In this document: one piece after another, positions 2 through 18,411 of the stretch
Position numbering within the stretch: position 1 is the first letter of the stretch
How the letters are laid out: each line of letters starts with the position of its first letter
From: Acanthamoeba lenticulata
Taxonomy: Eukaryota; Discosea; Longamoebia; Acanthamoebidae
Assembly: GCA_002179805.1 (NCBI GenBank)
Contig: NAVB01002573.1
Span: 1 to 21,072, forward strand
Length of the DNA stretch: 21,072 nt
Direction of reading: 5' to 3'
Position numbers and translations under genes: made by a program
Notes under the pieces: model-generated
Database searches by the model: none
Told to the model about the DNA's origin: nothing
What the model saw: the letters and a program-made list of their open reading frames with translations, nothing else

Positions 2-1129
2 ATCACCTTTGAGAAGAAGCACGGCCAGCGTAGCGACATCGAAGACGTGATCGTGGGCAAGCGGCGCTTCCAGTACGAGGAGGAGCTCAAGACCAACGTG
101 CACAACTACGACATCTGGTTCGACTTTGTGCGCCTCGAGGAGCTCCACTCGCCGCCAGAGCGCGTGCGCGACGTCTACGAGCGCGCCATCGCCAACGTCC
201 CGCCGGCGGCCGACAAGCGCTTCTGGCGGCGCTACATCTACCTGTGGATCAACTACGCGCTCTACGAGGAGCTCCACGCCAACGACCCGGCCCGGGCGCG
301 CGAGGTCTACCGGCAGCTGCTGCGCTTGATCCCCCACACGAGCTTCTCCTTCAGCAAGGCCTGGATCCTGGCCGCGCAGCTCGAGATCCGCCAGCTGGAC
401 CTGGCCGCCGCGCGGTCCGTGCTGGGCCACGGCATCGGCCTCGCGCCCAAGGAGAAGGTCTTCAAGTTCTACATCCAGTTTGAGCTCCAGCTGGGCAACA
501 TCGACCGCTGCCGCCGCCTCTACGAGGCCTACGTCGAGCGACACCCGAACAAGTGCACGGCCTGGACCTCGTACGCCGAGCTCGAGCGCCAGCTGGGCGA
601 GACCGAGCGCGCCCGCGCCATCTACGACCTCGCCGTTGAGCAGCCACTGCTCGACATGCCCGAGGTCCTGTGGAAGGCCTACATCGACTTTGAAATCGAG
701 CTCGAGGAGGTTGAGCGCACCGAGCTCCTCTACCGCCGTCTTCTCGACCGCACCAAGCACGTCAAGGTCTGGATCTCCTACTGCCAGTTCCTCGCCGCCG
801 TCGCCGGCCGCCCCGACGACACCCGCGCTACCTACGAGGAGGCCTACAAGTACCTCAAGAACGCCGGCCTCAAGGAGGAGCGCGTCCTCCTCGTCCAGAG
901 CTGGAAGCAGTTTGAGGAACAGACGGCCGACCCGCGCGGCCTCACCCGCGTCAACTCGCTCCTGCCCAAGCGCATCAAGAAGCGCCGCCCGCTCAAGTCC
1001 GAGGACGGCGCCGCGGCCGGCTGGGAGGAGTACTACGACTACATCTTCCCCGACGAGCAGTCGGCTCTCCCCAACCTCAAGATCCTTCAGCGCGCCCACC
1101 AGTGGAAGCAGGCCGCCGATTCGTCTTGA
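2..1129 (+). CDS. CRNKL1/CLF1: Crooked neck-like pre-mRNA splicing factor, C-terminal part (5' end outside window)
   Basis: The reading frame is already open at base 2 and runs 375 codons without an intron to TGA at 1127-1129. The first methionine-like codon (GTG at 47) is internal. The protein is a chain of HAT (half-a-TPR) repeats with the W/Y-x2-Y..A/E pattern. It shows near-identical family stretches such as KRRFQYEEE, YIYLWINYALYEEL, LDMPEVLWKAYIDFEIE and the closing GWEEYYDYIFP. This is the C-terminal portion of the Clf1/Syf3/Crooked neck family, a scaffold of the Prp19-associated (NTC) complex that acts in spliceosome activation in the nucleus. The end of the protein after the WEEYYDYIFP motif is short and lacks the long acidic tail of the animal protein. 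It converges with the TMEM243-like gene, 172 bp away. Confidence in the family is very high. Confidence 0.96.
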   Translation: MTFEKKHGQRSDIEDVIVGKRRFQYEEELKTNVHNYDIWFDFVRLEELHSPPERVRDVYERAIANVPPAADKRFWRRYIYLWINYALYEELHANDPARAREVYRQLLRLIPHTSFSFSKAWILAAQLEIRQLDLAAARSVLGHGIGLAPKEKVFKFYIQFELQLGNIDRCRRLYEAYVERHPNKCTAWTSYAELERQLGETERARAIYDLAVEQPLLDMPEVLWKAYIDFEIELEEVERTELLYRRLLDRTKHVKVWISYCQFLAAVAGRPDDTRATYEEAYKYLKNAGLKEERVLLVQSWKQFEEQTADPRGLTRVNSLLPKRIKKRRPLKSEDGAAAGWEEYYDYIFPDEQSALPNLKILQRAHQWKQAADSS

Positions 1130-1301
1130 AGAAGTTGATCCCTCTCTCTTCTTGTTCATCGTTACGATTACATCACCATCAAGACTTCCTACAACACTTG
1201 CGTCTTCTTCAATATTTCTGGTTTTGTGGCGCTACAAGAACGTAAAAGGGGGGGGGGGTTGATGTGGTGCTGCCCAGGTTTTAACAACTCTATCTATATC
1301 A
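1130..1301. other. Convergent intergenic region (3' flanks of CRNKL1 and TMEM243-like genes)
   Basis: This is 172 bp between two convergent stop codons. It is AT-richer than the flanking exons and contains an 11-base G run at 1248-1258. No ORF of note or RNA gene was seen. It presumably holds both short 3' UTRs. Confidence 0.6.
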
Positions 1302-2135
1302 CTACAGGTAGGCAAAGTAGCTGGCCAGGGGCGGGGCGCCGCAGGTGGAGAGGGTGCAGTTGCAGCACTGCACGGTCGCCTGCGTGAGGGAGGTCACCAG
1401 CGCGCACTGCGGATTGTTCTGGTTGTAGCACTTGGCCGCGCCCGAGAGCACGCACTGCTTGGCTTGCGTGTTGTACAGGCCGTCCGGGCTGTGTGTCGTG
1501 ACGTGGTGACGAGGATGTCGTGTAAGCAGAAGCCGCACAAGAGCAAGAGCGCGTGCGTATGTGTGGACAGAGCGTGGTCGCGTACCAGCTCGGAGGTGGC
1601 TTGCACGGTTCAGGAGGCGAAGGCCACACGTAGGCGTTGATGGTCACGCAGAGCAGGATCACGACGAGTGTCGTTCCAATCAGGACCCTGGTTGTGTTCG
1701 TTAGCGGGGCACGACGTTGTCAGTACAAGGAGAAACAAGGCCGCAGCGCACGCAACAAAGTGAGCTACCAGAAGAGCTTAGGGTCCTGGTCGCCCTTGGC
1801 GTAGAACCTCCACTGATGATGGACCACACAGCATAAGGAATGAGATAGAGTGATAAATGACTGAGGCAAAGCGAAATGGAATCACGGGGATCAGTTTGAA
1901 CCTGGAGGATGACGACGAAGGTGAGGCAAAGCATGCTTCCTGCGAGCATGATGTGTTGTGGCGTCTCGTGAAGAATGCCAAACACAATGCCAACAGTGGC
2001 GGAGAAAATGATGGTGATGGCCACAGCCGCGATTAGGAGCCAGGCCAGCCACTTGACTCCTTTTCGCTCCTCACCGAAGAGAGGCGTCTCTGTTGTGACT
2101 TCATGTGTGGCAGGGCCTGTGCTGTAGTCCGCCAT
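1302..2135 (-). CDS. TMEM243-like three-helix membrane protein with Cys-rich C-terminal tail
   Basis: The model has four exons: 2135-1902, 1812-1769, 1687-1586 and 1488-1302. The three introns are 89, 81 and 97 nt with consistent phases, giving 188 residues. The N-terminus carries the motif PLFGEE (residues 18-23), followed by hydrophobic helices at about 29-56, 60-78 and 93-113. Between helices 2 and 3 lies YAKGDQDPK, matching the (W/Y)RQGDLEPK motif that, with PLFGE, marks the TMEM243 (MM-TRAG) family. Family members have about 118 residues. This one continues with a Pro-rich linker and a tail of about 60 residues holding nine cysteines, including CCNC. The function of the family is poorly known, and membrane location is inferred from the helices. 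An alternative acceptor at 1860 would add 16 residues, but it destroys the family spacing. Confidence 0.72.
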
Positions 2136-2345
2136 TTCAATTCAATTGAATGTACAGCCGATAAAGATCAGCTGTCTCGTTACGCCAGCACAAAACCACG
2201 AGAAAAAGGCGAAAGAAAATCGTCGTGGGCACGCAAGGCACGCTGGCCCGAAGCGTTGGTTCGTGTAAGAGTAGTACAACAAGAAGGAAAGGAAGGCTCA
2301 TAGGTAGCAACGCTGTACTCGTTGAGCGTGAGCTCCAAGGTTCTC
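2136..2345. other. Intergenic gap between two tandem minus-strand genes
   Basis: This 210-bp gap lies between the stop of the headpiece gene (2346) and the ATG of the TMEM243-like gene (2135). It should hold the 3' UTR of the former and the promoter of the latter. I see no clear TATA box or conserved element. Confidence 0.5.
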
Positions 2346-2669
2346 TCAAAAGAGCCCAACGAGCTTTTTCTTCTGGTTTCGCTTCCAAAGGGGCATCTTG
2401 TAGAACTCGTCCTTGTCCATCTGGAACACCTTCTGGAACTCTTCGGCAGCCAAATGGCCCTGCACAGTCGTTTAGTCCGACAGCTCCATACCTGTTTATC
2501 ACTTGACCAGACATGTCTGGTCATGCTTGTAAAAAGGGAGCTGGTGTCTCACCTCGATCTTGGCGACGTGGATGATCTTGTCCTTGGGCTTGTTCTGGCG
2601 GAAGGACAGCAGCTCGGCAAGTGTGTAGTTTGTCTTCAGCGCCTCCTCCAACGCAGCTTCGCTGGGCGT
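2346..2669 (-). other. Villin headpiece (last two exons of the fusion gene)
   Basis: TPSEAALEEALKTNYTLAEL opens the headpiece and EFQKVFQMDKDEFYKMPLW leads to the C-terminal basic helix ending GLF. The hydrophobic core pattern F..VF.M....F..(L/M)P.WK is intact, as is the Lys-rich actin-binding end. There is one residue more than usual between the Lys run and GLF. The 93-nt intron at 2552-2460 splits the headpiece in phase 0. Confidence 0.93.
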
Positions 2670-5600
2670 CTTCACACATCAGAAACAATAACGTCAGCCA
2701 GCCGATTGTACATGTACACGAGGACTCTTGAGGCTGGGGGCGTACCGGCTCCTCCGGCTCAGCCCTCTTGAGCTCGGCGCTCGTAGCCACAGTGGCTCGG
2801 CGGTAGAGTGGCGAGACTGACAGCGCGGGCCGCGTCTCTGGCGTCGCCGCGTTGGTCACTCGCCGAGCTGGCGGCGTGCCTGGTGGTCGTGGCAGTTCCC
2901 AACGTGAGCCTTCATCCCCTTGGAGGCTTCCAGCCGCAGCGCAAAAGAAGAAATGAGAGCGCGTACTGAAGGCGGGGCCTCTCGGCGACGTCCCCTGCGC
3001 GACGTCGGTCCACTCGGCAAACTTCTCCCTATTGGTGGATGTTGTGGATGTGGTGTGGAGTAGTTGATGAGCCTTGGGGGCCTTGGGTAAAGCGCGACAA
3101 AGTGGAGGTGTGTGTCTACGAACTTGAAGAGGAGCGGCTCCTTGTCCTCGGCCACGCAGTCCAGCGTGACCCACGCCGGCCTGTCGGCCTTGGCGGCCAG
3201 AAGCTCGGCCTTGGCCTTGGCCTCGGCCGCCTGGCTGTCAGCTTCGCTCACCTCGCGGCCAATCCAGAGGTAGAACTCGGTCTCGGTGTCGACTGCAAGA
3301 ATGGTGGTCGGCGACAAGAGGTCGCGCGTGGGCGGCACGCCGGCCGCGCCGCACGGCTCGGTGCTCACCGCGCCGCCTGCGCCCGTCGGGACGAGCTTGT
3401 GCATGGAGACCACGACCGGCCAGGCGTTATCATCGTCTCCCCCGTCCTCGGGCGTGGCGACATCGCTCGGTTGGCCGCCCAGCACGGTCCAGAACTCGCC
3501 AGCGCGCTGGGGCTCCTGGTCCACGTTGACCAGCATCACGCCGCCCGTGCGCTCGTTGTTCTTGATGATGTTGGCCACCATCAACGCCTTGGAGCGCTCG
3601 TTGATGTTGGCCTTGGTGCCGTTCCACACAAAGAGCGTTCGTCCGGTGTCGAGCACGAACGAGTCACCTGTGCGCAGCACAGCAGTTCAGAGGCGACAGC
3701 CAATCAGCGCAAGCCATGGCGTGGCGACGAGGGCGCGCGAGGTACCGTGGTTGAGCGACTTGGCGGCGACCTCGACCAGCCGAGTGCGCACCTTCCTCTT
3801 GCCCTTGCACTGGATGAGGCGCTTGGCCGTGGGCGGGCTCATCGTCACGCTGCTACGCAAAACCTTCCGGAAGACTGCAACACCAAGGCCAAACACAACA
3901 AGCCGTCATCAATCAATATTTGAGGCCACGATCGTGTCGTCGCCCTTCAAGGGCCTGATAGGGGACGTACCAGGAGAAGGCGTATTGGCGATCGATCCCG
4001 TACTCGCCCGCAGCCGTGGTGACACGACTCCGGCGACGCGCGGGTCCTGCAACGGGCCGTTGGTCGTCCGTTGCGGCGCGACGTCGGCCGAAGCCGCCGG
4101 AGAGTTGGCCGGCACAGCCGTGCCGGAAGCCGCAAGGGCACCCGCGCTGGCGTCGGTGGTGGCTGTCGTGGCCTCGGCGGCATCCTCGACCTTGGCCGGT
4201 GTGGTCGTCGTGGACGAGCTTGACGAAGAAAGCAGTTGCTGGGGATTGGACAGCCCGAGCTTGCTGGCCCGCTTCTGGTGCTCTTCGAGCTCCTCCGGAG
4301 CCACAGACGAGTTGCGCCGAGGGCCCGACGACTGCAGCGGATTCAACACCGCCAAGCCCGACGGGGCGCCCGGGCTCACAGAGGGCGATGGCGAGGGCGG
4401 GACGCCCGACACAACCCGTGGCCGGTTGGCGCCGATTGGGGACGACGCGCCTAAGGCGGCGCGGGCAGGCTGGGTTGGGGAAACTGGCTGCGTCTGCACG
4501 GCACCGGCGGACTTGGCGAAGGAGGGTACTCCCCTCTTGTCTGCGCCTCCCTGCTCTTCTTCTGTGGCGGTGGCGGTCTGCAGGTCGATCGAGCCTTCGC
4601 TTCGCTTCTTAAGCAGATGAACGCCGAACCCGGGCTTGGGCTCCTCCTTTGTCTCCGCAGGCGCCGCTGTGTTTGCACTGTCATTTATGTGTGTGTGTGT
4701 GTGTAGCGTGGTCAACATGTGCGTGTAGGCTTGCGTATTGGCACACAATGCGGCCTGCAAACGTACGGCGACTTGCGAAGGCCGCTCGGCATGAGGCGCC
4801 CGCCGTGCATCGGCGGCAGCGCGATGGGGATGGCAGCGCCGCCAGAAGGCCCTGGTGGTGAAGCCACAGACACAGTTGTGTCTCTCTGTGAATAACATGG
4901 CTGACCCATGAAAGGACAGATGGGACGCCGTACGCCGAGTGACTGGGCTGCTGGCGGGGGCAAGGGACTTGTCCTTCTCCTCCTCTTCGTCGTCGGGGAG
5001 GACCACCAGTGCTTGCTGCGAGTACATCGACTGGGGCGAGACCGAGGGCACCTTGGAGTGGTGGCCTGCATAGAGTATGCGCGCGTGTCAACAACAACAA
5101 CAACAGCCAACCCAAGAGATCGTGACGGGCGTGAGGGCGTCGTGCCTCGCTTGGGCGGCCGTCGGGCCGGGCCCTTGTTTCGGGCGGGGGCGTTTAGACG
5201 AGGCCCGGGCGGCGCGACGGCCTCGAGCACGTTGCTCTGCGGAGCGGGATCACTGTTCACTACGACGACCTGCGGCGGTGCCGTCATTGTGATGACGGTG
5301 GTGGCGGTGGCGGTGGCGGTGGTGACGGCGGGTGAGGCTGTGGCGGCTTCCTTCTTGCCGCCCTTCTTGCCAAAGAGCTTGAATTTGGACGTCTTGGCCG
5401 CCGCGGGCTTGGCCGTATGAGGAAGAGCAATGGGCGCGAGCTTTTCCGGCTGGACGAGGTTGAGGAGCGACACGCCCTCGCTCTGTCGACGGCGGAGCTC
5501 GGTGCGCACCCACATGAGGGCCTCGCCCATCGCGTTCTCGCCCGAGCCGAGCTTGTTTTTGGACTTTTCGCCGTTGCCCAGATATTTGTCACTGTCCCTG

Positions 5601-6690
5601 TATACCAAGTGCAGCTCGCCCGAGCCCATCAACTTGTTGAACATCATGGTGCTGTTCCCGAACTTGTACAGCGTGATGGCTCTCAAAATCTGATATTTTT
5701 GAGTACAAAATTAACACAAGAGGCGCCACACACGCTACACGCCAAGCAACGGACACGAACCTCGTATTTGTTCTCCCTCCATTCCTGCTGGACCTCGTCA
5801 ATCTTTATCGTGGAGTCGAGTTTGCGCAGGTCCTTCAGGTTGGACACGAACTGGATCTTCTTCCCCATGGGCGAGCTCGGCCCTACCTTTTGGGACTGTG
5901 TAAAGAGAGAGGAGTAGGAGGAGGAGAAAGAGTTGAAGCATGTGAGCCAACGGACGAGGCAATGAGGCATTGTCGAGAGTAAATGGCGAACCAGGAAGTA
6001 ATGAAGGCAGGTGAGCCAGGTGTTGCTGGCCAGGGTCATGGGCGACAGGAAGCACGGGCTGAAGCAGGAAGCCTCTGAAAAGTAGAGGAACCCGTCCATC
6101 GTATGCTCGTCGCGCTGTGCACCCAGCTGTTCAAAGTCGCTACCTCGTGGCGACAGCGGTGGTGCCGAGGCCTGATGGTTTCCCTTGCCGCCCTTCTTGC
6201 TGCCAAAGCCACGGCGCGCCTTCTTCTCGATGGTCTTTGTGTGTTCAACTTCCATCTCTCGAAGCGAGCGGCGACGTCCGACCTGCATGTCGTCCACCGC
6301 TCGCCTGGCCGGGTTGAAAGGCGGGATGACTGGCTTTTGTGTCTGCCCCTTGTCGGTTTCAACTTGCCGTTGTTTCTCGGGCATGAGCTCTGCAAGATTT
6401 TTGGCACTGTGCGCCTTGTGCTCGGGTGTCAAGGCTCGGCTGCGTCCCGGTGCATCGAGGAGCTGAGCAGGATCAAGCATCGCTTGTTGTTTCTGTTGTT
6501 CCCCTCGCGGGCTCTTCAGGAAGGGCGTCCCTTCCCCGCGTCCCTTCTGATGAGTTGCCCCAACCCACTTGATCGTCGGCACCTTAGCTCCATTGGTTCC
6601 ATTCGAGGCGCCGTCCTGTCCCTGGTGTTGGTTCTGACCTGAGGCCTCTGATCCATTGTTGCTGGTGTTGTCAGGATTGACCTCCATCAT
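2346..6690 (-). CDS. NADAR domain - gelsolin repeat - villin headpiece fusion protein
   Basis: Twelve predicted exons: 6690-5992, 5895-5761, 5689 to about 5105, about 5051 to 4944, 4885-4767, 4677-3971, 3874-3746, 3667-3120, 3024-2967, 2879-2746, 2669-2553 and 2459-2346, giving roughly 1150 residues. Domains in order are: a disordered polar N-terminus; a NADAR/YbiA-like domain at about 200-345; a basic, Ser/Pro/Thr/Ala-rich linker at about 350-785; a first gelsolin repeat at about 795-925 (CKGKRKV, GDSFVLD, LFVWNG, NERTGG, as in villin/gelsolin G2); a second at about 935-1016 (YLWIG, then EPLLF and AEW); and a villin headpiece at about 1083-1150 ending in PLWKRNQKKKLVGLF. The headpiece and gelsolin repeats are established F-actin-binding modules. 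All phases close except the third intron, where donor and acceptor (5199/5066 or 5104/5052) cannot be decided. A two-gene reading is possible, but no start or stop signal between the parts supports it. Confidence 0.7.
4688..4704. repeat. TG/AC microsatellite in an intron of the fusion gene
   Basis: About eight TG units on the plus strand (CA on the coding strand) sit just upstream of the acceptor of the 89-nt intron at 4766-4678. Confidence 0.85.
5480..6105 (-). other. NADAR (YbiA-like) domain region of the fusion protein
   Basis: The domain is encoded across three exons. The N-terminal part ends in TWLTCLHYFL and is joined by splicing to SQKVG. It aligns residue for residue in spacing with the family block FSNF..P..(G)KTWPTSEHYFQAQKF. 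The C-terminal part has KF...LMGSGELHLVYRDSD, then YLGNG and GENAMGEALMWVRTEL. This matches the family pattern KF..n..L..LL.T....LvE....D.YWGDG...G.N.LG..LM.lR. Compared with that pattern, the Glu of T-x-E-H is Leu (residue 229), and the Trp and Asp of WGDG are Leu and Asn (315, 317). The Lys of the QxQK motif is kept. NADAR proteins act on ribose-linked N-glycosidic bonds. Whether this copy is active is doubtful. Confidence 0.68.
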
Positions 6691-7014
6691 AATCACTCTT
6701 ATTTACACACTGGTGACCGCGCTGTGATGAAGCCGTTTCTCTACTTGTTTCTGCCGTCCTGTCGTCCCTCTCCACTCTCTTCACACACACCAAGCGCCCT
6801 CGAGGTGGTGGTTGGTTTGTCACTCCAAGGAGACGTGCCTTGGCCTCCTCAGCGCTAAAACCCAAAGGCATGGAGGCATCCTTTCCTTTTTCAGGGTGAG
6901 CCACCCAAAAGAAGATAGACGAAGAAGACATACCTCACATTCCTGCTCAACGACAGCCCCCTTGATGCTCGTGGACACAACTTACAAACAACTACAAACA
7001 TCCTGTTTGTGTCG
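6691..7014 (-). other. Gap upstream of the fusion gene with a candidate 5' coding exon (6931-6792)
   Basis: These 324 bases separate the SMN stop codon from the ATG used for the fusion gene. An in-frame TAA lies just upstream of that ATG. On the same strand an ATG at 6931 opens about 47 codons of coding-like sequence (MSSSSIFFWVAHPEKGKD, then GFSAEEAKARLLG). It is followed by GT sites near 6791 and by weak acceptors at about 6698 and 6682 that would keep the frame. This could be a true first exon, which would extend the fusion protein by about 47 residues. The acceptors lack a pyrimidine tract, so I left it out of the model. Confidence 0.35.
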
Positions 7015-8209
7015 TTATTGCAACATTGAGTGGCTACTTAGGGGTAACGGGGCACTATCGCGCAGGGCCTGATATCTGCCCGCATAGTAGCCCGAGTAGT
7101 ACCACGCGTTCAGCAAGTTCTTGAGCGCCTCGTCGTCCATGCCCGCTGTGGAGCACATAAAGCAAAAGACAGATGAGTGATTTGATCTCTGTCAGATTGA
7201 CGGTAAGAAGTACCTGGCGGTGGTGGAGGCGGCGGCGGCTGGTGATGCTGATGGTGCACGTGAGGCAATACGGGCGGGTGATGATAGGGGCTATGCATGG
7301 CCGGGTGGATGTGGTAGTGTGGCGTGGGCATCATCGGGTAGCCGGACGGCATGGCCGGGTACCCAGCCGGGCCATAGGGCGCGTACGCTCCAGCCTGCTG
7401 CCACGATAACCCACCCCAGTCAGCAATCTCCACGCGGCGTCTGAGCTGGTGTACACCAGGGAGTGGTCAACCTGAGCAAAGGGGTAGGCCCCATAGCCTT
7501 GATCGTGGCTAGTAGGAGCCGGGGCTTGAGCAGAGGTGCCCTTCTGCTTGCGCTGTGCTTTCTTGGCCGGCGATGTAGCGGCAACTGCGGCATGGTCTCC
7601 TCCGGGGTAGTAGTGCGGGTGGTAGCCATAGTAGGCGCTGTAGTCGTAGGCTCCAGCGTCGTGCGGAGAGGGTTGCGTTGCGAGGCTTGTCTGCGTGCGG
7701 TTTGCTTCAGGCTCCTCTTCCGCAACTACGTCATCGTCTTGCCCCGCTGCAGACTTGCGCGACTTCCTGCTGGCCCCATGAGGTGGTGTGAGGGTTGGTG
7801 GCCGTTGGGCGGCACGCCAGGGAGGGTGAAAGTCGCACCGTTTGGTGGTTTTCTTTGGTGTAGCGCTCTCCTTTCGCGCTGGGGTGGAAGGCACAGAGGA
7901 GACCATAGCGTCCACGGTGGGTGCTTCAATATCGTCCATCCTCGATTCTTCAGTGCACTCTTCATCGTCCTCCGCTTCTTCAACTGCGTCTTCTTGAAGT
8001 GCTGCTTCTTCTTCCTTGCGGTTGGGGTCGTGCGCTTTCTGCACGCCGGGGTGAGAAATTGAAACTCACCTTCTCGAGAAAGGTGGTGCACAAACCTTGT
8101 AGTAGCTGATAGATTGTGAAAAAGCTTTGATAAGCTCGGTATCATCCCAAATCTCGTTAAAATCGGCCCCTCCCATCGCGATGGGCTGCCATGTTGTCTT
8201 GCCCGCCAT
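7015..8209 (-). CDS. SMN1: Survival motor neuron (SMN) homologue lacking a Tudor domain
   Basis: Five exons: 8209-8096, 8038-7839, 7769-7472, 7394-7214 and 7145-7015. The introns are 57, 69, 77 and 68 nt, all phases close, and the product has 307 residues. The N-terminus has the Gemin2-binding helix motif IWDDTELIKAF (residues 20-30). The C-terminus has the YG box for self-association, LLNAWYYSGYYAGRYQ. Between them lie an acidic Glu-rich stretch, a basic KKTTKRRKSRKS stretch, a Tyr/Gly/His-rich part and a His/Pro-rich segment with an eight-Pro run. SMN with Gemin2 assembles Sm rings on spliceosomal snRNAs. No Tudor signature, which reads symmetric dimethyl-Arg tails of Sm proteins in animals, is present in any frame, including the introns. 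Fission yeast Smn1 also lacks it. Confidence 0.88.
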
Positions 8210-8386
8210 AGTCGCAAAAGTTTCACAAACTTTTCTTGCACTAAAATTAAATTGAATAGTTTCCACGAAGCACGCTCGTGTTTCCCGCTCTTTTGGGGCA
8301 GGCAAATCGAAAGAGGCGACGGATTGTGGGTGGGCAGCCCAGTTGTGTACCGAGAAGCTTCACAATCCATCAGCGTTTACGCGCCA
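8210..8386. promoter_or_regulatory. Divergent promoter region between SMN and SCC2
   Basis: This is 177 bp between two divergent start codons (ATG at 8209 on the minus strand and at 8387 on the plus strand). It must hold both promoters and 5' UTRs. No clear TATA box is visible. There is a short AT-rich patch at about 8239-8262. The regulatory role is inferred only from gene order. Confidence 0.55.
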
Positions 8387-11300
8387 ATGGACAATCGCGG
8401 CTCGCCCCAGCCGCCCCCTTACAATCTGTGTAATTTGACTCATTTTACAAGTGTTCTGCCGGCGTTGCCGTTGCCCACGATCAACGTGCCGTATGCTGTC
8501 AACGTTTTTGCCACGCAACCGGCCGAGCTCGTAAAGCAAGCCGATAAATGGTTGGATAACCCGACACCTGACATCGACACGATGATGCAGCAGTGGCTGG
8601 CCGAAGCCGACATGTCTTGGGCGTACGTGGCCTTCTTCGTCACAGCCGCGATGAACGTGGCGCGCCCTGACCACTGTTATTATTATGCAGACCAACAAGT
8701 GATGAAGGCCAATTTAGCCTCACGCCAGCTCAGTCACTCCCACTCCCGCGCAAGCCTCTTGCCGACCTATCAAACCGTCCATTGAACATGCAACAGCCAA
8801 TGGAGAGCAAACCAGCCCCGCCCAGCCAAGCGGCTTCTCGCACCAACATGCCTCCTCCGCCACCAGTCAAGGTATTTTATTATTATTATTCTTCTTCTAT
8901 TCACCCACTTGTTTAGTGGAGGTGCACAGCCTCACTCTTGTTGTGGCCCCCAAACCCCAGACCTTTTCAAAGAAGAGGACACAAGCGACTACTGCCTCTT
9001 CGCAGGGTCAATCCGAGAAGAAGACGCTCAAGCTCAAGGGCAGTCGCCAACAGCAAACAGATACGACAAAGCAAGGTATAGCCGACATGCTCGCCCATAC
9101 GGGGAACAAGAACTTACAAGCTTTGTCTTGATAGACGATGTACTCGAATCAACGGAAGGCAAACGATTTGGTGCGCTCATCGCGCATATCTTCGAAGTGC
9201 ATGACACCGGCGTGCAAGATGATGATCAAGACACGAGGCTCGTTGACTATGAAGTGGTGCGTTTTGGCCCTCATCTGCTCAACGTTTATGAAGATAGGCT
9301 CATTTGTCTTCACCACGCCTTAGCTGAACGAACTTTGGACCGAAACGGCAAAGCTAAAAGCGAATGGCTCGCTAGCGCGTGTGCCAACTGAGACCCTGTC
9401 ACGGCTGATCCACATCATGGAATCCTACGTCAAAAAAGGCAACAACGTCAAGATCTTTGAAGAGGAAGAAGAGCGGGTCCGTTACTTCTACGTAATCTAC
9501 AACACACCTTGAAGTAACACTCGTTCTTCCTTAAGGGTGAAAAGGTGAAGGAAGTCACCGTACTCTACGGGTTCGTCGCAGCTCTGGTCATCATTCAGAT
9601 CTTCGCAGCACCCAACATCGAAAAAGCGCTGATTGTAGAGGATGTGCGTCTTATCTTGGTCTTATCTCTGGTGCCTGAAAAAGCTCACCGGCTCATGCGA
9701 CCAGACGATCGAGAGTATGTTGCACTTCGTCAAGTTCAATGTTACGCACAACATTATTCCAGCCTTCGACCCCCTTGTTGACCTCAAGAAGGTGAAAGGA
9801 AAGAAGGCTGTCGAGCACTGCAAGAGGTAACCTCATTTCAGTTCTCTTAACGTTCACTATGCTTAAGCAATTCACACGCCGTCGTGTGCAGACTCGTTAC
9901 TCTAGTATGCTGTTATCTCGATGTACTCAATGAATTCATCGCCAAGGAGCCGCTTACCGATAGCATGGTGTTGGACATCTGCGCTGTCACCATTCCGCCC
10001 TTCTTCATGGAGGGTGGCAACGAGCTTCAGCTTCATGCGCTAAGCGTTGCTCGCACGGTACTCTTTCGCGTCCTTCTCATGATTAGCCTAGGTGGATCTC
10101 GTGTGGTTCGCGCGTCACTGACCGTCTGGTGGGTTTGTGTGCAGATTTTTTCGCAGTACGAGAAGCACCGAACACTCATACTCGAGGACATCTTCACCTC
10201 CCTGGCCAAGTTGCCCAAGACCAAGCGAACCTTGCGAGCTTATCAGTAAGTACCAGCGATGCACACAGCTATACACTCATGCGTTGTCCGCCGCTAAGAC
10301 TCCTGCGCACAGTCTGGTCGAAGACAACAAGTCCATACAAATGGTCTCTGCGCTGGTGCTGCAGCTGATCCAGTGCTGCCCTTCTCTCATCAAGTTGGCC
10401 ATCACTGGCACCTCGAAGAAGAGCATCGACCTGGAACCGCAGAAGCCTGCACAAGCCGAAGGCGAATCCATGGTCACGGTCAGCGACGCCAACTCCTATG
10501 AGGCTGCCGTGGCGTGCGCCTTGGCCTTTATGCAGTCCTTTGTGGCCAAGTACGCAGGCCTCTGACATCCCGTTGAGTGTGGTACAACTAACGTGCTCAA
10601 CTACTTGTAGGTGCTCCACGCGCGAGGAAGACAACGACTACCGACACATCCTAACCAACTTTGTCGAGGACCTGCTGCTGACGATCAATCTGCCCGAGTG
10701 GCCCGCCTCGCAGGTGCTTCTGCGTGTGCTGAGCGGTATCCTGCTCAAGAATATGAAGAAGGACTCTAAGGAGAGCACCATCCTCAAGAGCTTTTCGATC
10801 GACCTGCTGGGTAATGTCGCGGCCAAGGTGAAGAAGGAGATGGCCCTGGCTCAACAGTGGATGGAAGTGCTTCCTCAGTCTGCGGTACGATCGTATCATC
10901 TGCACACTCGTCAATGCACTAGGCTCACGACCGAACGTGCTCGGCGTAGGATGGAGGCGATAGCATCGGGTGTTTCTGCAATGACAAGCAGGACAATGGT
11001 CAGTTTATGCTGGACTGCGATGAGTGCCACAAGTGGTTCCATGGCGTTTGTGTGGGCGTGCTGCCCGATCACGTGCGGCCGCTTCTCTTCCTTTATGAAC
11101 AGAACCATTTTGTCTGTGGTGCTCATGCTCAGGCGCGCAGGTTCCGACAAATTGGTACTGCGACAACTGTCTCATCAGGCGAAAGGTGCGCTCAAGGAAG
11201 CACAGCGACAAGAACAACAGCAGCGCTTCCGTTGACATGTCCGTCGACGAGCCCGACGACGAGGAGGTCCGCGCATTTTCGATTGTCTTGCCGCTGTGAG

Positions 11301-14300
11301 TGCCTCTTCGTCAGTACTCATTTCTCTCTGACGCTGTGCAGAAGTCAGTGGACGACGAACAGGCCCAAGCGCGCGAGGCGCTGGAAATTGACATCATGCG
11401 ACAAATGCTCCTCAACTATCTGGCGGAGCGCTCCAAGGCGGATCCCTCTGTGCTATACTCCCGACAGTTCCTCATCAGCCAGTGGTGCCACACCGAAGAG
11501 GACGAGGACAAAGTCCAGGACTACAAATCACAGTGGGAAGTCAACTCGAAGCGCAGCCGTGAGGTGGCCGAGAGGTAAGCAGTGGATGCATGGGAGGGCT
11601 TAAGTCGTTGACACTCTCTGACCGCTACTCATGCCAGGAATGAGCGTCTTCTCTCTCGGGACGGCATCTTCAAGATTGTCCGCTTCCTATCTACGAAGGG
11701 CTCGCTCCTTTTGAGCTTTGACAGCATGCTCAATCAAATCATCGTCCTTATGAACGAACCGCTCACCACCTTCCGTTCCAAGGGCCTGAAGGCGTTGACC
11801 ACCATTTTGGAAGCCGATTCCAACACGCTGGGCGATGTACATCTTTCTTCACCTTCTGGCTGAGAAGCTATATTGATTAACGCACCTCGCTATGCAGCCC
11901 CGCGTAGAGCAAGCTGTGCGCGGGCGGTTCATGGACAGCGCGATCTCTGTGCGCAGTGCTGCTGTTGACTTGGTCGGCAAGTACGTAATGGAAAGGCCAG
12001 AATTCGCGGCCCAGTACTACCCCATGATCGCCGACCGAATCTACGTACGCGTCTTCTCGCCAAATGCGCGCAAAGGTGATTTTCTGATCAATTCGCCTTG
12101 CCCTCTTCTAGGACAAGGGTGTGACCGTCCGCAAGCACGTGGTGACCATCCTGCGCAATATGTGCCTGGGCCAGCCTCACCACTCTTTGGTTCCAACCAT
12201 CTGCCAGGAGCTGGTGAAGAAGATCAGCGACGAGGACGACTTCATCAGGGTATGAGAACACTCAAGTGATAGATTGCGCCTTGTCATTCTCTGATACACC
12301 ATTTTGCCTTCATTTCTTCCTGCAACAGGAAACCGTGCTCAAGACCTTCCAGGAGCTGTGGTTCAGCGCCTTGCCGAAGAAAGAGGCCAACTCAGAAGCC
12401 AGCTTCGCCGTTCATAAGGTTCGTCAATGCACTCACAAGATTAAGCTGATGTCATCGAACGCTAACAATAACCTGCGGGCATTCTTCCTAGACCCTTGAC
12501 ATGCCTACCAGAGTCGATCAGCTCATCGAGGTGACGCGGAGCAGCGGTAGGAATCAGTGGTTCTCTGACCTGCTCGTCAACGTATGACTCCCTTCTCACA
12601 GCCCTCAAATGGGCCATGCGGAAGTACATCTCTGACCATCGACTTTATACGCGCAGTTGTTGCGCAAGGAAGTCAATGAGCCCAACAAACCTGTACACGC
12701 CATATGTAAGCTGATGGTGTCCAGCATCGCCGAACGCCTCTTCGCCCTCGATGAAAACAATGCCGAGCCTGCTGGCACCGAAAACGTACCCGCCTGCTCT
12801 ATTCACAATTGTGTCTCAGCACGTGCTGCTGTGATGTTTCCCTAGGCATGTCGCCTTAGCGCTTACCTACCACGTTATCGCAGGAGCAAAAATCTGCCTT
12901 CAGATCGTTGCCTGCCGTTCTCAATGCACTCCACCTGTTCTGCCAGGCCTCGCCTAGCCTCCTTGTATCACACATCACCACACTTCACCCGTACATGAAG
13001 CTCACGGTAACTCCCGCCTTCAATTACTGGTGTCCATGTCTGATTGCTGACCCACCCCATGATGCAGGCAAATGACGTTGGTGAACACCTGGCCGCCAAC
13101 CGAGTGATTGGGATCATGGAGAGCGTAGCGCCGCTTCTCGAACACCCTGATCCCTCATTCTTCGCCGAAGTAGAGAAGGATTTGCAGGAGCTCATCTACA
13201 ACATCACTCTTACTTCTCCAGTACGCCTTATCCGTGTTACACTCCTTCCGTGCGAGAAATCACTCACCCCTTCGCTTGCAACTGTTACCAGCTTGCTTGG
13301 TTGGCGCTGGCCTCGGCAGCCAAGTGCCTCGCCACCTTTGTACTGAAGCTGACAGGCCACCATGAGCTGCTGCGTTCCATCGTTGATCGCTTCCAAACCT
13401 ATCTGGACAAGTGCCGAGCCATGTGCAGCAAGAAGGAACTCCTGACCCCCGCGCGCGTCGACAACGCTGGCCGTGCGCTTTACTGCCTCGGCCACATCTC
13501 CCGACACTATGAGGCTGTTCCTGGTACGTTGTGTCAAAGCTCTGGTCCTCTTCGTTCAACATTTGCTAAAACTGCAATGTGTTGATCTTTTAGCCAAGGG
13601 CGACGCAGGACCGTCAACCAAGGACCCGGTGTTGCACAACACCTTCAAGCTCGCCACGCTGTATGCCCAGTGCTCGACGAGCTCCGAACTGCAACTGCGA
13701 GCTACCCAGGTCTCTCTCCTCCCAGTTTAAGTTCCTTTGATCTTCATTACTATTCACTAAATCCTCTTTTTTAATTATCCGGCAGGCGCTCGGCAGTGTT
13801 TTCGTGCGCGCACCGGAGCTCATGCTCAAGCCGCATGTGCAGGCCATCATCAAGCAAACGCTCTTGTCTGAGTCACACGAAGTGCGACTTCAGGCGTTGC
13901 TCAACATTTCAGACTTCCTTGCCTCCGAGGAAACTAAAGCACTCGCCGGGTCGGCCAGCAAGAAGAAGCAAAAGCAGAAGAAGTCCAAGCCAGGTTCGCC
14001 ACTCCACGTCCCCTCTTCCCCTATCTGTCGAAACCTAACGGTCTCTTTAGCCAAAGGCAAGGCCAAGCCCAAGAACGAGGACGAGCTCGACCTCGACGGG
14101 TCGATGGACCTCAACGAATCGCTAGACGAGAGCAGCCACGAGCTATTCGTGGAGATGGACAACAGCGATTCTGGGTACATACACCCATTTTTTGGTTATG
14201 ATTTAGTGTCGCAAGCAGCGGCTGACCATCCTCTACTCGATCATCAGCGTGAGCACCGCCATCGCGCAGTTGTTCCTGGATTGCATTTTGGGGCAGTTGC

Positions 14301-15947: not shown

Positions 15948-16010
15948 AGAAGAAAAGAAGGCGAAAACTGTTTCCTTTATTTTCTATTTTCTTCTTGCGC
16001 CGGCAACAAG

Positions 16011-18411
16011 ATGAGGGCGACCCTGCGCCAAGGGCTTGAGACCAGCGCAAGGGCTGTTGGAGGCCCATGCGTGCCCCGCTGTGGCGCTATGGTGCAGCGC
16101 CAATACCATCGTCCTCCTGTGCTGTCGTTGGCCACCAAGGTGAATCCAGCAGCATGCCAGAGGATGCAACTCCTCCTGCCCTCTCTGGCATGGTGGCCGA
16201 GGAGGACGCGAAGTGGTGCCGTCGCGTCCGCTGCTGCGTTGCCAGCTGCACGGCAACATCGGGCGAGGCGGACCTACAGCGCGGGGTTCCACTACGGCGG
16301 GCAGTCCGGCGACTCCATCTTCGCGCTGGCCACGAGCCCGGCGGGCAAGGCCGGCGTGGCCGTCGTGCGCCTGTCGGGCCAGCGCGCAGGCGACGCCCTG
16401 CGCGCGCTCACCCGCGCTTCAGACCTGCCGCCAGCGCGCGTCGCCACTCTGCGCAAGCTCTTTGACCACGAGGTGTGCACCTCGCCGCCGCATCTCCCCG
16501 CGAGCTGCCGTTCTCTGGCTGACACCGCTCTGCATGCAGAGTGGCGAGCTGCTCGACGAGGCCCTCGTGCTCTGGTTCCCCGGGCCACGGAGCTTCACAG
16601 GCGAGGACATGGCCGAGCTGCACCTCCACGGCGGCCACGCCGTGATCACGGCCGTGCTCCACGCCCTGGGCCGCCTCCCCGGCCTCCGCTCCGCCGAGCC
16701 CGGTGTACGCCTGCCGTCATTCCACAAAGACCATTCTACAAACGCCCGCAGATGAGGCCTAACACAAGGAAACACGCCCAACCAGGAATTCACGAAGCGC
16801 GCATTCCAGAACGGGAAGATGGACCTGACCGAGGCCGAGGGCATGGCCGACCTCATCGACGCCGACACGGAGGCCCAGCGGCGCCAGGCCCTTCGCCAAA
16901 TGGGCGTACGTTTGTGCGCGCCTTTTTGTTGTTTGACAACCAATCCGATCACCGAGTGATGACTCCCGGCGCGCGGTCGTTGCGGTCGCCCGCCCACAGG
17001 GCGCGCTGGGCCAGCTCTGCAACGAGTGGCGCGAGGAGCTGATCAAGTGCATCGCCCACGTCGAGGCCGTCATCGGTACGCACACTCGCCCGGCGCGGTC
17101 GAGGCCGAGACCCTTGCGCTCACAGGAGAATATGGACCAGATTTCGGGGAGGACGAGCACATCGACCATGAGGTGGCCGCCGCCGTGCAGCCCCGCATCC
17201 GACGCCTGCACGACGCCATCGGGCACCACCTGCGCGACGCCCATCGCGGCGAGCGCCTGCGCAGCGGGGCGGCGCTGGCCATCGTGGGCCCGCCCAACGC
17301 GGGCAAGAGCAGCCTCCTCAACCTCCTGGTCCGGCGCAAGGCCGCCATCGTCTCGTCCATCCCCGGCACCACTCGCGACGTCATAGAGGCACGTAAAACT
17401 AATTTCAATATTTATTAAATATTATTAGCTTTTAATTTTGATTTTATTCTTATTATTTTAAAAAAAATATTTCCAGGTGGCGCTGGACCTGGGCGGCTAC
17501 CCGCTCACGATCGCCGACACGGCCGGCATCCGGCACGCCGAGGACGAGATCGAGAAGGAGGGCGTCGCCTTGGCCCGCGAGAGGTGCCCCCCCCCTCTGC
17601 TTCTCTCCCTCTCTCTCTCTCTCTCTCTTGAGATCGACGGGGGAGGATGATGAACCTGATGTCGTCTTGTTGATGGCGCAGGTTCGCGAGCGCCGACCTG
17701 AAGATCTGCTTGTTCGACGCCACGACCTATCCGGGTCTGGCGCCCGAGTTGCTGGCCTTGGTCGACGACGACACGCTGGTGGTCCTCAACAAGCGGGACC
17801 TCCTCCCTTCGCCTCCTGTCTCTGTGGTGCGCGCCATCGCACACGCACGCGCGCGTGCTGGTGACTGACCCGCGATTGTGGGAGAAGCGATTGGCCGACG
17901 GGAGCACGCGGGAGGTGATCGCGATCAGCTGTCGTAGCGGCGACGGACTGGAGGACCTCACGGCCGCCCTCGAGTCCCGCCTCAAGGCCTTGTGCGTCGA
18001 CTTGCCCTTTGCTTAAGCTTGCGCTGCTCTCCATGACCACCTTCCACTCACGTTTGTGATGCAGCTTCGAGAGCGGCGCGGCGACGGGCCACGGCGGCGC
18101 GGTTGTGACGCGCGCGCGACATCGAGAGCACCTCCAGCGATGCCTGCAGCATTTGTGCACGTTCGCCCTCCCGCCCTCGGCCGCCTTGTGTGGTGGAGCT
18201 TGGGATGCTCACGTCCCATTGGGGACCGCGGGATTGCAGGTACCTCGAGATGGCCACGGAGGCGAGCGGGTCGCGCGACGGACGGATGTCGATCGACGTC
18301 GCGGCCGAGGAGCTGCGCCGAGGCCTGGCCGAGCTCAGCCGCGTCACAGGCCGGGTGGACCTCGACGAGATCCTCGACGTCATCTTTCGCGACTTTTGCA
18401 TCGGCAAGTAG
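16011..18411 (+). CDS. GTPBP3: Mitochondrial tRNA uridine-modifying GTPase (MnmE/GTPBP3/MSS1)
   Basis: Ten exons and 560 residues: 16011-16472, 16540-16704, 16786-16905, 17000-17075, 17141-17388, 17477-17583, 17682-17817, 17885-17991, 18065-18154 and 18240-18411. An Arg/Ala-rich presequence of about 95 residues looks like a mitochondrial targeting signal. It is followed by the MnmE N-domain ([54 protein letters not shown]). The G domain has the P-loop GPPNAGKS (324-331), GTTRD (350-354), DTAG (371-374) and NKRD (429-432). The C-terminus carries the invariant FCIGK (556-560) with the catalytic Cys557. With MnmG/MTO1 this enzyme makes the 5-carboxymethylaminomethyl-type modification at wobble U34 of tRNA. 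Intron 5 has a GC donor. The donor of intron 7 could be 17818 or 17827. The ATG lies only 63 bp after the Scc2 stop. Confidence 0.93.
17389..17476 (+). other. Probable GC-AG intron in MnmE
   Basis: To keep the invariant spacing between GTTRD-VIE and [10 protein letters not shown], the exon must end at GAG (17388), so the intron starts GCACGT and ends TTCCAG. No GT donor in the correct phase keeps the protein intact: using GTCATA at 17380 would delete three conserved residues after GTTRD. The intron is strongly AT-rich with T and A runs, unlike the flanking exons. Confidence 0.72.
17601..17629. repeat. CT microsatellite in MnmE intron 6
   Basis: A pyrimidine tract with about ten CT units follows a C run. 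It lies inside the 98-nt intron at 17584-17681. Confidence 0.85.

Follow-up and report, generated by a model that had tools for sequence, protein, structure and literature searches.

A predicted gene of Acanthamoeba lenticulata joining a probably inactive NADAR domain to gelsolin repeats and a villin headpiece

The stretch of DNA considered here, hereafter the window, is the entire 21,072-nucleotide contig NAVB01002573.1 (C1437) of Acanthamoeba lenticulata, the genome of which was searched as 48.5 Mb in 1,825 contigs. Two profilins encoded by this genome resemble closely, without matching exactly, the PDB profilins 1f2k, 1prq and 1acf of Acanthamoeba castellanii, which points to an Acanthamoeba and probably to another species; an exon of the cofilin family matched coactosin-like chains and was uninformative as a species marker. 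On the minus strand, a single open frame runs from two successive ATG codons (6690/6687) to a stop at 2348-2346 over 10 or 11 predicted exons and encodes, from N- to C-terminus, a NADAR domain (residues 206-343), a long linker, two gelsolin repeats and a villin headpiece (VHP). Two versions of the gene were retained, namely (i) model C, with 10 exons and 1129 amino acids (aa), where 8 of the 9 introns are GT-AG and the remaining one is GC-AG (5145-5066), and (ii) an alternative with 11 exons and 1169 aa, where an additional exon is placed within the linker, between exons 4 and 5; the product of this single-copy gene is thus about 1,130 to 1,170 residues long. The GC-AG intron was chosen because a homologous database protein, P0006, reads RRPPQRGHHKKVP over the same join, and two earlier splice models, with exon 3 ending at 5254 or 5105, were discarded as P0006 showed an RG-HH join. 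The linker, of low complexity and probably disordered, amounts to 405 residues in model C (346-750) and is 40 residues longer in the 11-exon alternative, which fits the figure of about 440 residues given in an earlier sequence-only reading.

Pfam and full-length database searches were carried out with a first model of 1093 aa, and the Pfam search was repeated on the 1169-aa model, the chance level of domain matches being judged from the E-values. With the 1093-aa model, NADAR (PF08719) scored 59.3 bits against a cut-off of 35.1 (E 7.2e-16, profile positions 10-163 of 163), the VHP scored 57.6 bits (E 1.2e-15, 36/36 profile positions) and gelsolin matched in two stretches (E 3.8e-15); the outcome was nearly identical with the 1169-aa model. 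Pfam on the spliced models thus agrees with the domain order proposed in the sequence-only reading, the NADAR, two gelsolin and VHP matches it expected in the spliced protein all being found, and the minus-strand gene it placed at 2346..6690 is borne out by one frame open over the predicted exons in both haplotypes.

The second haplotype is provided by contig C711, which is colinear with the window and 97.4% identical to it over positions 559-10086; the NADAR-gelsolin-VHP arrangement is present on both contigs, and both the 10- and the 11-exon versions are open in each. Within the exons of model C, the haplotypes differ by 22 synonymous and 20 nonsynonymous changes, with proportions of synonymous (pS) and nonsynonymous (pN) differences of 0.0263 and 0.0078, respectively. 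The nonsynonymous changes fall in the linker (12), the N-terminus, NADAR domain, gelsolin part and second linker (2 each) and not in the headpiece (0). Only two allelic indels lie in these exons, both multiples of three, i.e., +3 (5208) and +3 (2881), and those in introns comprise -5 (before exon 2), -2, -1/+1 and -6, several of which are not multiples of three. The disputed stretch 4943-4667 holds indels of +2/-2/-15, of which the +2/-2 pair is placed by the 11-exon version in the extra exon, where the two cancel out. In addition, P0006, a sequence probably read from a transcript, aligned uninterrupted and without introns to exons 1-4, its first 176 residues being unmatched in the window protein. 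While the intron boundaries are predicted, and those in the linker are uncertain, an artefact of assembly or splice modelling is extremely unlikely given the agreement of two separate contigs over 9.5 kb and the span of the P0006 alignment.

The locus could alternatively hold two adjacent genes, i.e., one for a NADAR protein, with its end in exon 4 or beyond, and one for a gelsolin-headpiece protein, starting from an ATG near 4718, which is in frame in the window and likewise in the other haplotype. Exons 4 and 5 lie 267 bases apart, a distance comparable to the spacing to neighbouring open frames (about 200-400 bases, by eye), and the 708 aa of P0006, encoded on a contig of 3,132 bases, come to an end ahead of any gelsolin part; should this be a genuine stop, the two parts would belong to separate genes in the relative. 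However, the window frame read on from exon 4 is free of stops until 3909, and in C711 it meets one stop, within the presumed intron, so that, barring a different splicing, the haplotypes would not share an end for the first gene. Moreover, exon 5 contains no in-frame ATG and is joined in phase, and at most about 230 bases would be left to accommodate a C-terminus, a terminator, a promoter and a 5' end. A pair of adjacent genes is as such disfavoured with respect to a single gene, and we regard it as improbable.

Database searches with the full-length protein, its N-terminal half and its C-terminal half scored about 8,000 top candidates each. The full-length search returned five matches, in none of which a NADAR domain was listed. 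The N-terminal half had P0006 as its sole match, 82 of 153 positions being identical in the NADAR domain, and the C-terminal half matched P0007 (130/186 identical in the gelsolin core) and P0008 (two gelsolin repeats and a VHP). No record with the NADAR-gelsolin-VHP architecture appeared among these top candidates, an absence that is weak evidence since the database is apparently poor in protists, nor was a paper evidently on this protein or on NADAR combined with gelsolin or headpiece found among the literature matches listed; the sequence-only reading had likewise been unaware of such an architecture. Literature searches found no paper joining a NADAR domain with a headpiece, nor Acanthamoeba with gelsolin and villin headpiece. 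Within the genome, no locus other than this one was found to carry the NADAR half (6/6 rows on C1437 or C711), and a paralog of the tail on C491 (L049, C491:63819-67091) and C1783 exhibits two gelsolin matches, with 30% identity to the window gene in that part, and a partial VHP match. In place of NADAR, this paralog has upstream a long coiled-coil-like frame, assumed to belong to the same gene, and the gelsolin-headpiece tail seems to be a reusable module that Acanthamoeba joined to differing N-terminal parts. As regards viruses, at least two IMG/VR contigs (L146, L147) carry a coding stretch that shares about 30% identity with P0006 in its NADAR part, and none of the 8 matches obtained when viral contigs were searched with the gelsolin exon was a relative.

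Considering the tail, the gelsolin pair aligned to gelsolin 140-356, which from the domain limits we take to be G2-G3, and a G1 repeat was not found, Pfam giving no more than two gelsolin stretches in either the 1093- or the 1169-aa model and the best match beginning after G1. A RLIQCKGKRK stretch presumably stands in place of a gelsolin phosphoinositide-binding stretch, and the headpiece retains the WKRNQKKK...GLF end, which in villin presumably bears F-actin contacts. With a pair of G2-G3 type lacking G1, binding to the sides of F-actin would be likelier than severing. The headpiece search matched supervillin, dematin and ABLIM, where we assume the headpiece to close a long protein, as it does in the window protein, and NADAR to be absent. 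According to the excerpted text of PMC3203266, villidin and the class-4 coronins are, like the window protein, amoebal proteins with gelsolin repeats devoid of the first one, followed by a C-terminal headpiece and preceded by an N-terminal module of an unrelated kind; in contrast, this module consists of coronin WD and PH domains instead of NADAR, and the gelsolin repeats number four to five instead of two (PMC3203266). Neither the coronin WD nor the PH domain gave a Pfam match in the 1093- or 1169-aa model.

Active-site residues of the NADAR domain were numbered after the Phytophthora NADAR 8bau, consistently with the profile alignment, and compared with a yardstick of 63 rows, i.e., YbiA and 62 of 68 bacterial loci found, the other 6 falling short of the 126 query residues required. 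Six search patterns served to find these loci; E43, Q47, K50 and R79 are in none of them, and some contain W89, R93, E125, D130 or W133, the counts of which are thereby inflated. In the complex with ADP-ribose, as given in the excerpt of PMC11543638, E43 and E125 hold the distal ribose, and K50, R79, W89, R93, W133 and D130 hold the pyrophosphate. The Glu at E43 and the Gln at Q47, each found in 63/63 bacterial YbiA-type rows, are both Leu in the window protein (Leu228 for E43) and in P0006, and R79 (59/63) is Ser in the former and Ala in the latter. In both proteins, E125 (62/63, inflated count) falls in a gap with a Tyr adjoining (Tyr307 in the window), a position where Glu is expected in the YbiA type and Asp or His in other NADAR subfamilies, and W133 (63/63, inflated count) is Leu (Leu314). 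Both proteins retain K50 (Lys235; 63/63) as well as, each in 63/63 rows by inflated counts, W89 (Trp271), D130 (Asp311) and R93, the last as Lys275 in the window and Arg in P0006 (K or R in the bacterial rows). As such, the ribose side is lost (2/2 residues) and the phosphate side is retained at four of six residues (K50, W89, K/R93 and D130). The window NADAR differs from the hydrolases, i.e., E. coli YbiA (2b3w) and the Phytophthora protein (8bau), in the loss of their E43, Q47, R79, E125 and W133 and in being fused to an actin-binding tail. Judging from these residues, the domain is probably a pseudoenzyme, catalytically dead, and the loss of both E43 and E125 in two homologs makes an eraser of ADP-ribosyl groups unlikely.

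We consider it likely that the gene encodes, as one single-copy unit, an F-actin adaptor similar to villidin and supervillin, with an N-terminal non-catalytic NADAR domain as a cargo or ligand module. The tail would attach laterally to actin filaments through two sites, namely G2 and the headpiece, and, in the absence of G1, would neither sever nor cap them, in keeping with the argument made for villidin. The NADAR domain would be a non-catalytic module binding a protein partner or a phosphate-bearing ligand, which would thereby be brought to cortical actin. NADAR on an actin-binding tail would add a new kind of N-terminal module to the gelsolin/headpiece family, and an apparently dead NADAR in two diverged homologs offers a testable case of the fold being used for binding and not for catalysis.

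Besides the early end of P0006, several points weigh against such an adaptor. F-actin binding by its tail is inferred from homology. In other NADAR genes of the genome, E43 is E in four, D in two and Q in one of the seven contigs (of nine) concerned, and E125 is E in two and Q in one of the three contigs readable; a hydrophobic residue at E43 occurs in 0/7. P0006 has a YbiA-type fold in its predicted structure, and 36 bacterial NADAR rows in the alignment favour that fold, the model being of low confidence over 451-470, where D130 and W133 lie (means 58 and 55). As reported in the excerpt of PMC11543638, the bacterial E. coli C7 NADAR was little impaired in vitro by E88A (E43 position), so that a missing E43 would not by itself prove the domain to be inactive. 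The last point also favours an active NADAR enzyme anchored on actin and stripping ADP-ribose from actin or another target, as do the retention of the essential Lys (K50) and of D130 and the description of NADAR domains as ADP-ribosyl erasers in excerpts of PMC11543638 and PMC10789625. An enzyme of this kind is nonetheless very unlikely, since the E125 equivalent is lost, D171A/N at that position having abolished efficient activity of E. coli C7 NADAR, and E43, Q47, R79 and W133 are changed too, in the window protein and P0006 alike. From the same excerpt, E88Q was inactive, and cells were not rescued by variants changed at E88 or D171 (PMC11543638). The substrates described in the source excerpts are guanine ADP-ribose and riboflavin intermediates, not protein. 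The ADP-ribose chemistry proposed in the sequence-only reading is therefore at odds with the loss of E43 and E125, and its suggested link to ADP-ribosylated actin finds no support beyond the family name, nothing indicating actin as the modified target.

Two other readings keep the NADAR domain non-catalytic. In the first one, a narrower form of the adaptor reading which overlaps with it, NADAR would be a pure protein-interaction or structural scaffold without ligand; the missing contacts to the distal ribose and those of R79 and W133 speak for it, but both homologs retain K50, W89, K/R93 and D130, each of which contacts the pyrophosphate in 8bau, and we give it somewhat less than an even chance. 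In the second one, the domain would still bind ADP-ribose or a related nucleotide without hydrolysing it, as a reader or sensor placing the signal or its carrier on cortical actin; a non-catalytic reader is possible because K50, W89, K93 and D130 are retained, and we hold it to be rather unlikely. If true, it would be, as far as our searches go, the first NADAR reader and the first cytoskeletal NADAR protein. The physiological roles of eukaryotic NADARs are described as unclear in the excerpt of PMC11125620, and no account of a NADAR pseudoenzyme was found in the excerpts retrieved under NADAR, pseudoenzyme and ADP-ribose.

Table 1. Positions of exons and domain segments of the NADAR-gelsolin-headpiece gene in the window
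Feature	Position	Strand	Content	Basis
Exon 1	5992..6687	-	Low-complexity N-terminus and first part of NADAR; another ATG at 6690	Pfam, P0006 homology
NADAR segment 1	5992..6090	-	Residues 200-232; Leu228 (E43 position) at 6006-6004	
Exon 2	5761..5895	-	Middle of NADAR, including Lys235 (K50 position) and Trp271 (W89 position)	
Exon 3	5146..5689	-	Last part of NADAR (to about 5486) followed by first linker, then GC-AG intron	P0006, RRPPQRGHHKKVP versus RRPPKRGHHSKVP (boundary)
NADAR segment 3	5486..5689	-	Residues 278-345; Tyr307 adjoining lost E125, Asp311, Leu314 (W133 position)	
Exon 4	4934..5065	-	Linker (model C); end 4944 in the 11-exon alternative	
Candidate extra exon	4767..4885	-	Linker, 11-exon alternative only; GTACGT donor; frame open in both haplotypes; part of a 267-nucleotide intron in model C	
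Exon 5	3971..4666	-	Ser/Pro/Ala-rich linker; start 4677 in the alternative; 231 whole codons, no in-frame ATG	
Exon 6	3746..3874	-	Beginning of first gelsolin repeat (RLIQCKGKRKVR, from about 3827)	
Exon 7	3120..3667	-	Bulk of both gelsolin repeats (G2-G3 type)	
Exon 8	2746..3024	-	End of gelsolin pair and second linker	
Exon 9	2553..2669	-	N-terminal part of headpiece	
Exon 10	2346..2459	-	C-terminal subdomain of villin headpiece, ending WKRNQKKKLVGLF, and stop	

Among the other NADAR genes of the genome, L001 (C152) has Q at E125, L007 (C183) has Q at E43, and L002/L003 (C520/C829) have D at E43. In P0006, the rows aligned over stretch 530-612 resemble generic long helices. Elsewhere in the window, the plus strand encodes at 2-1126 the C-terminal portion of a PRP39- or Syf1/CRNKL1-like RNA-processing factor with HAT repeats (Pfam), at 10953-11600 a PHD finger (31.5 bits) within an apparent large gene, and at 15948-17039 the start of a TrmE/MnmE-like protein (28.3 bits, slightly under the cut-off of 29.8).
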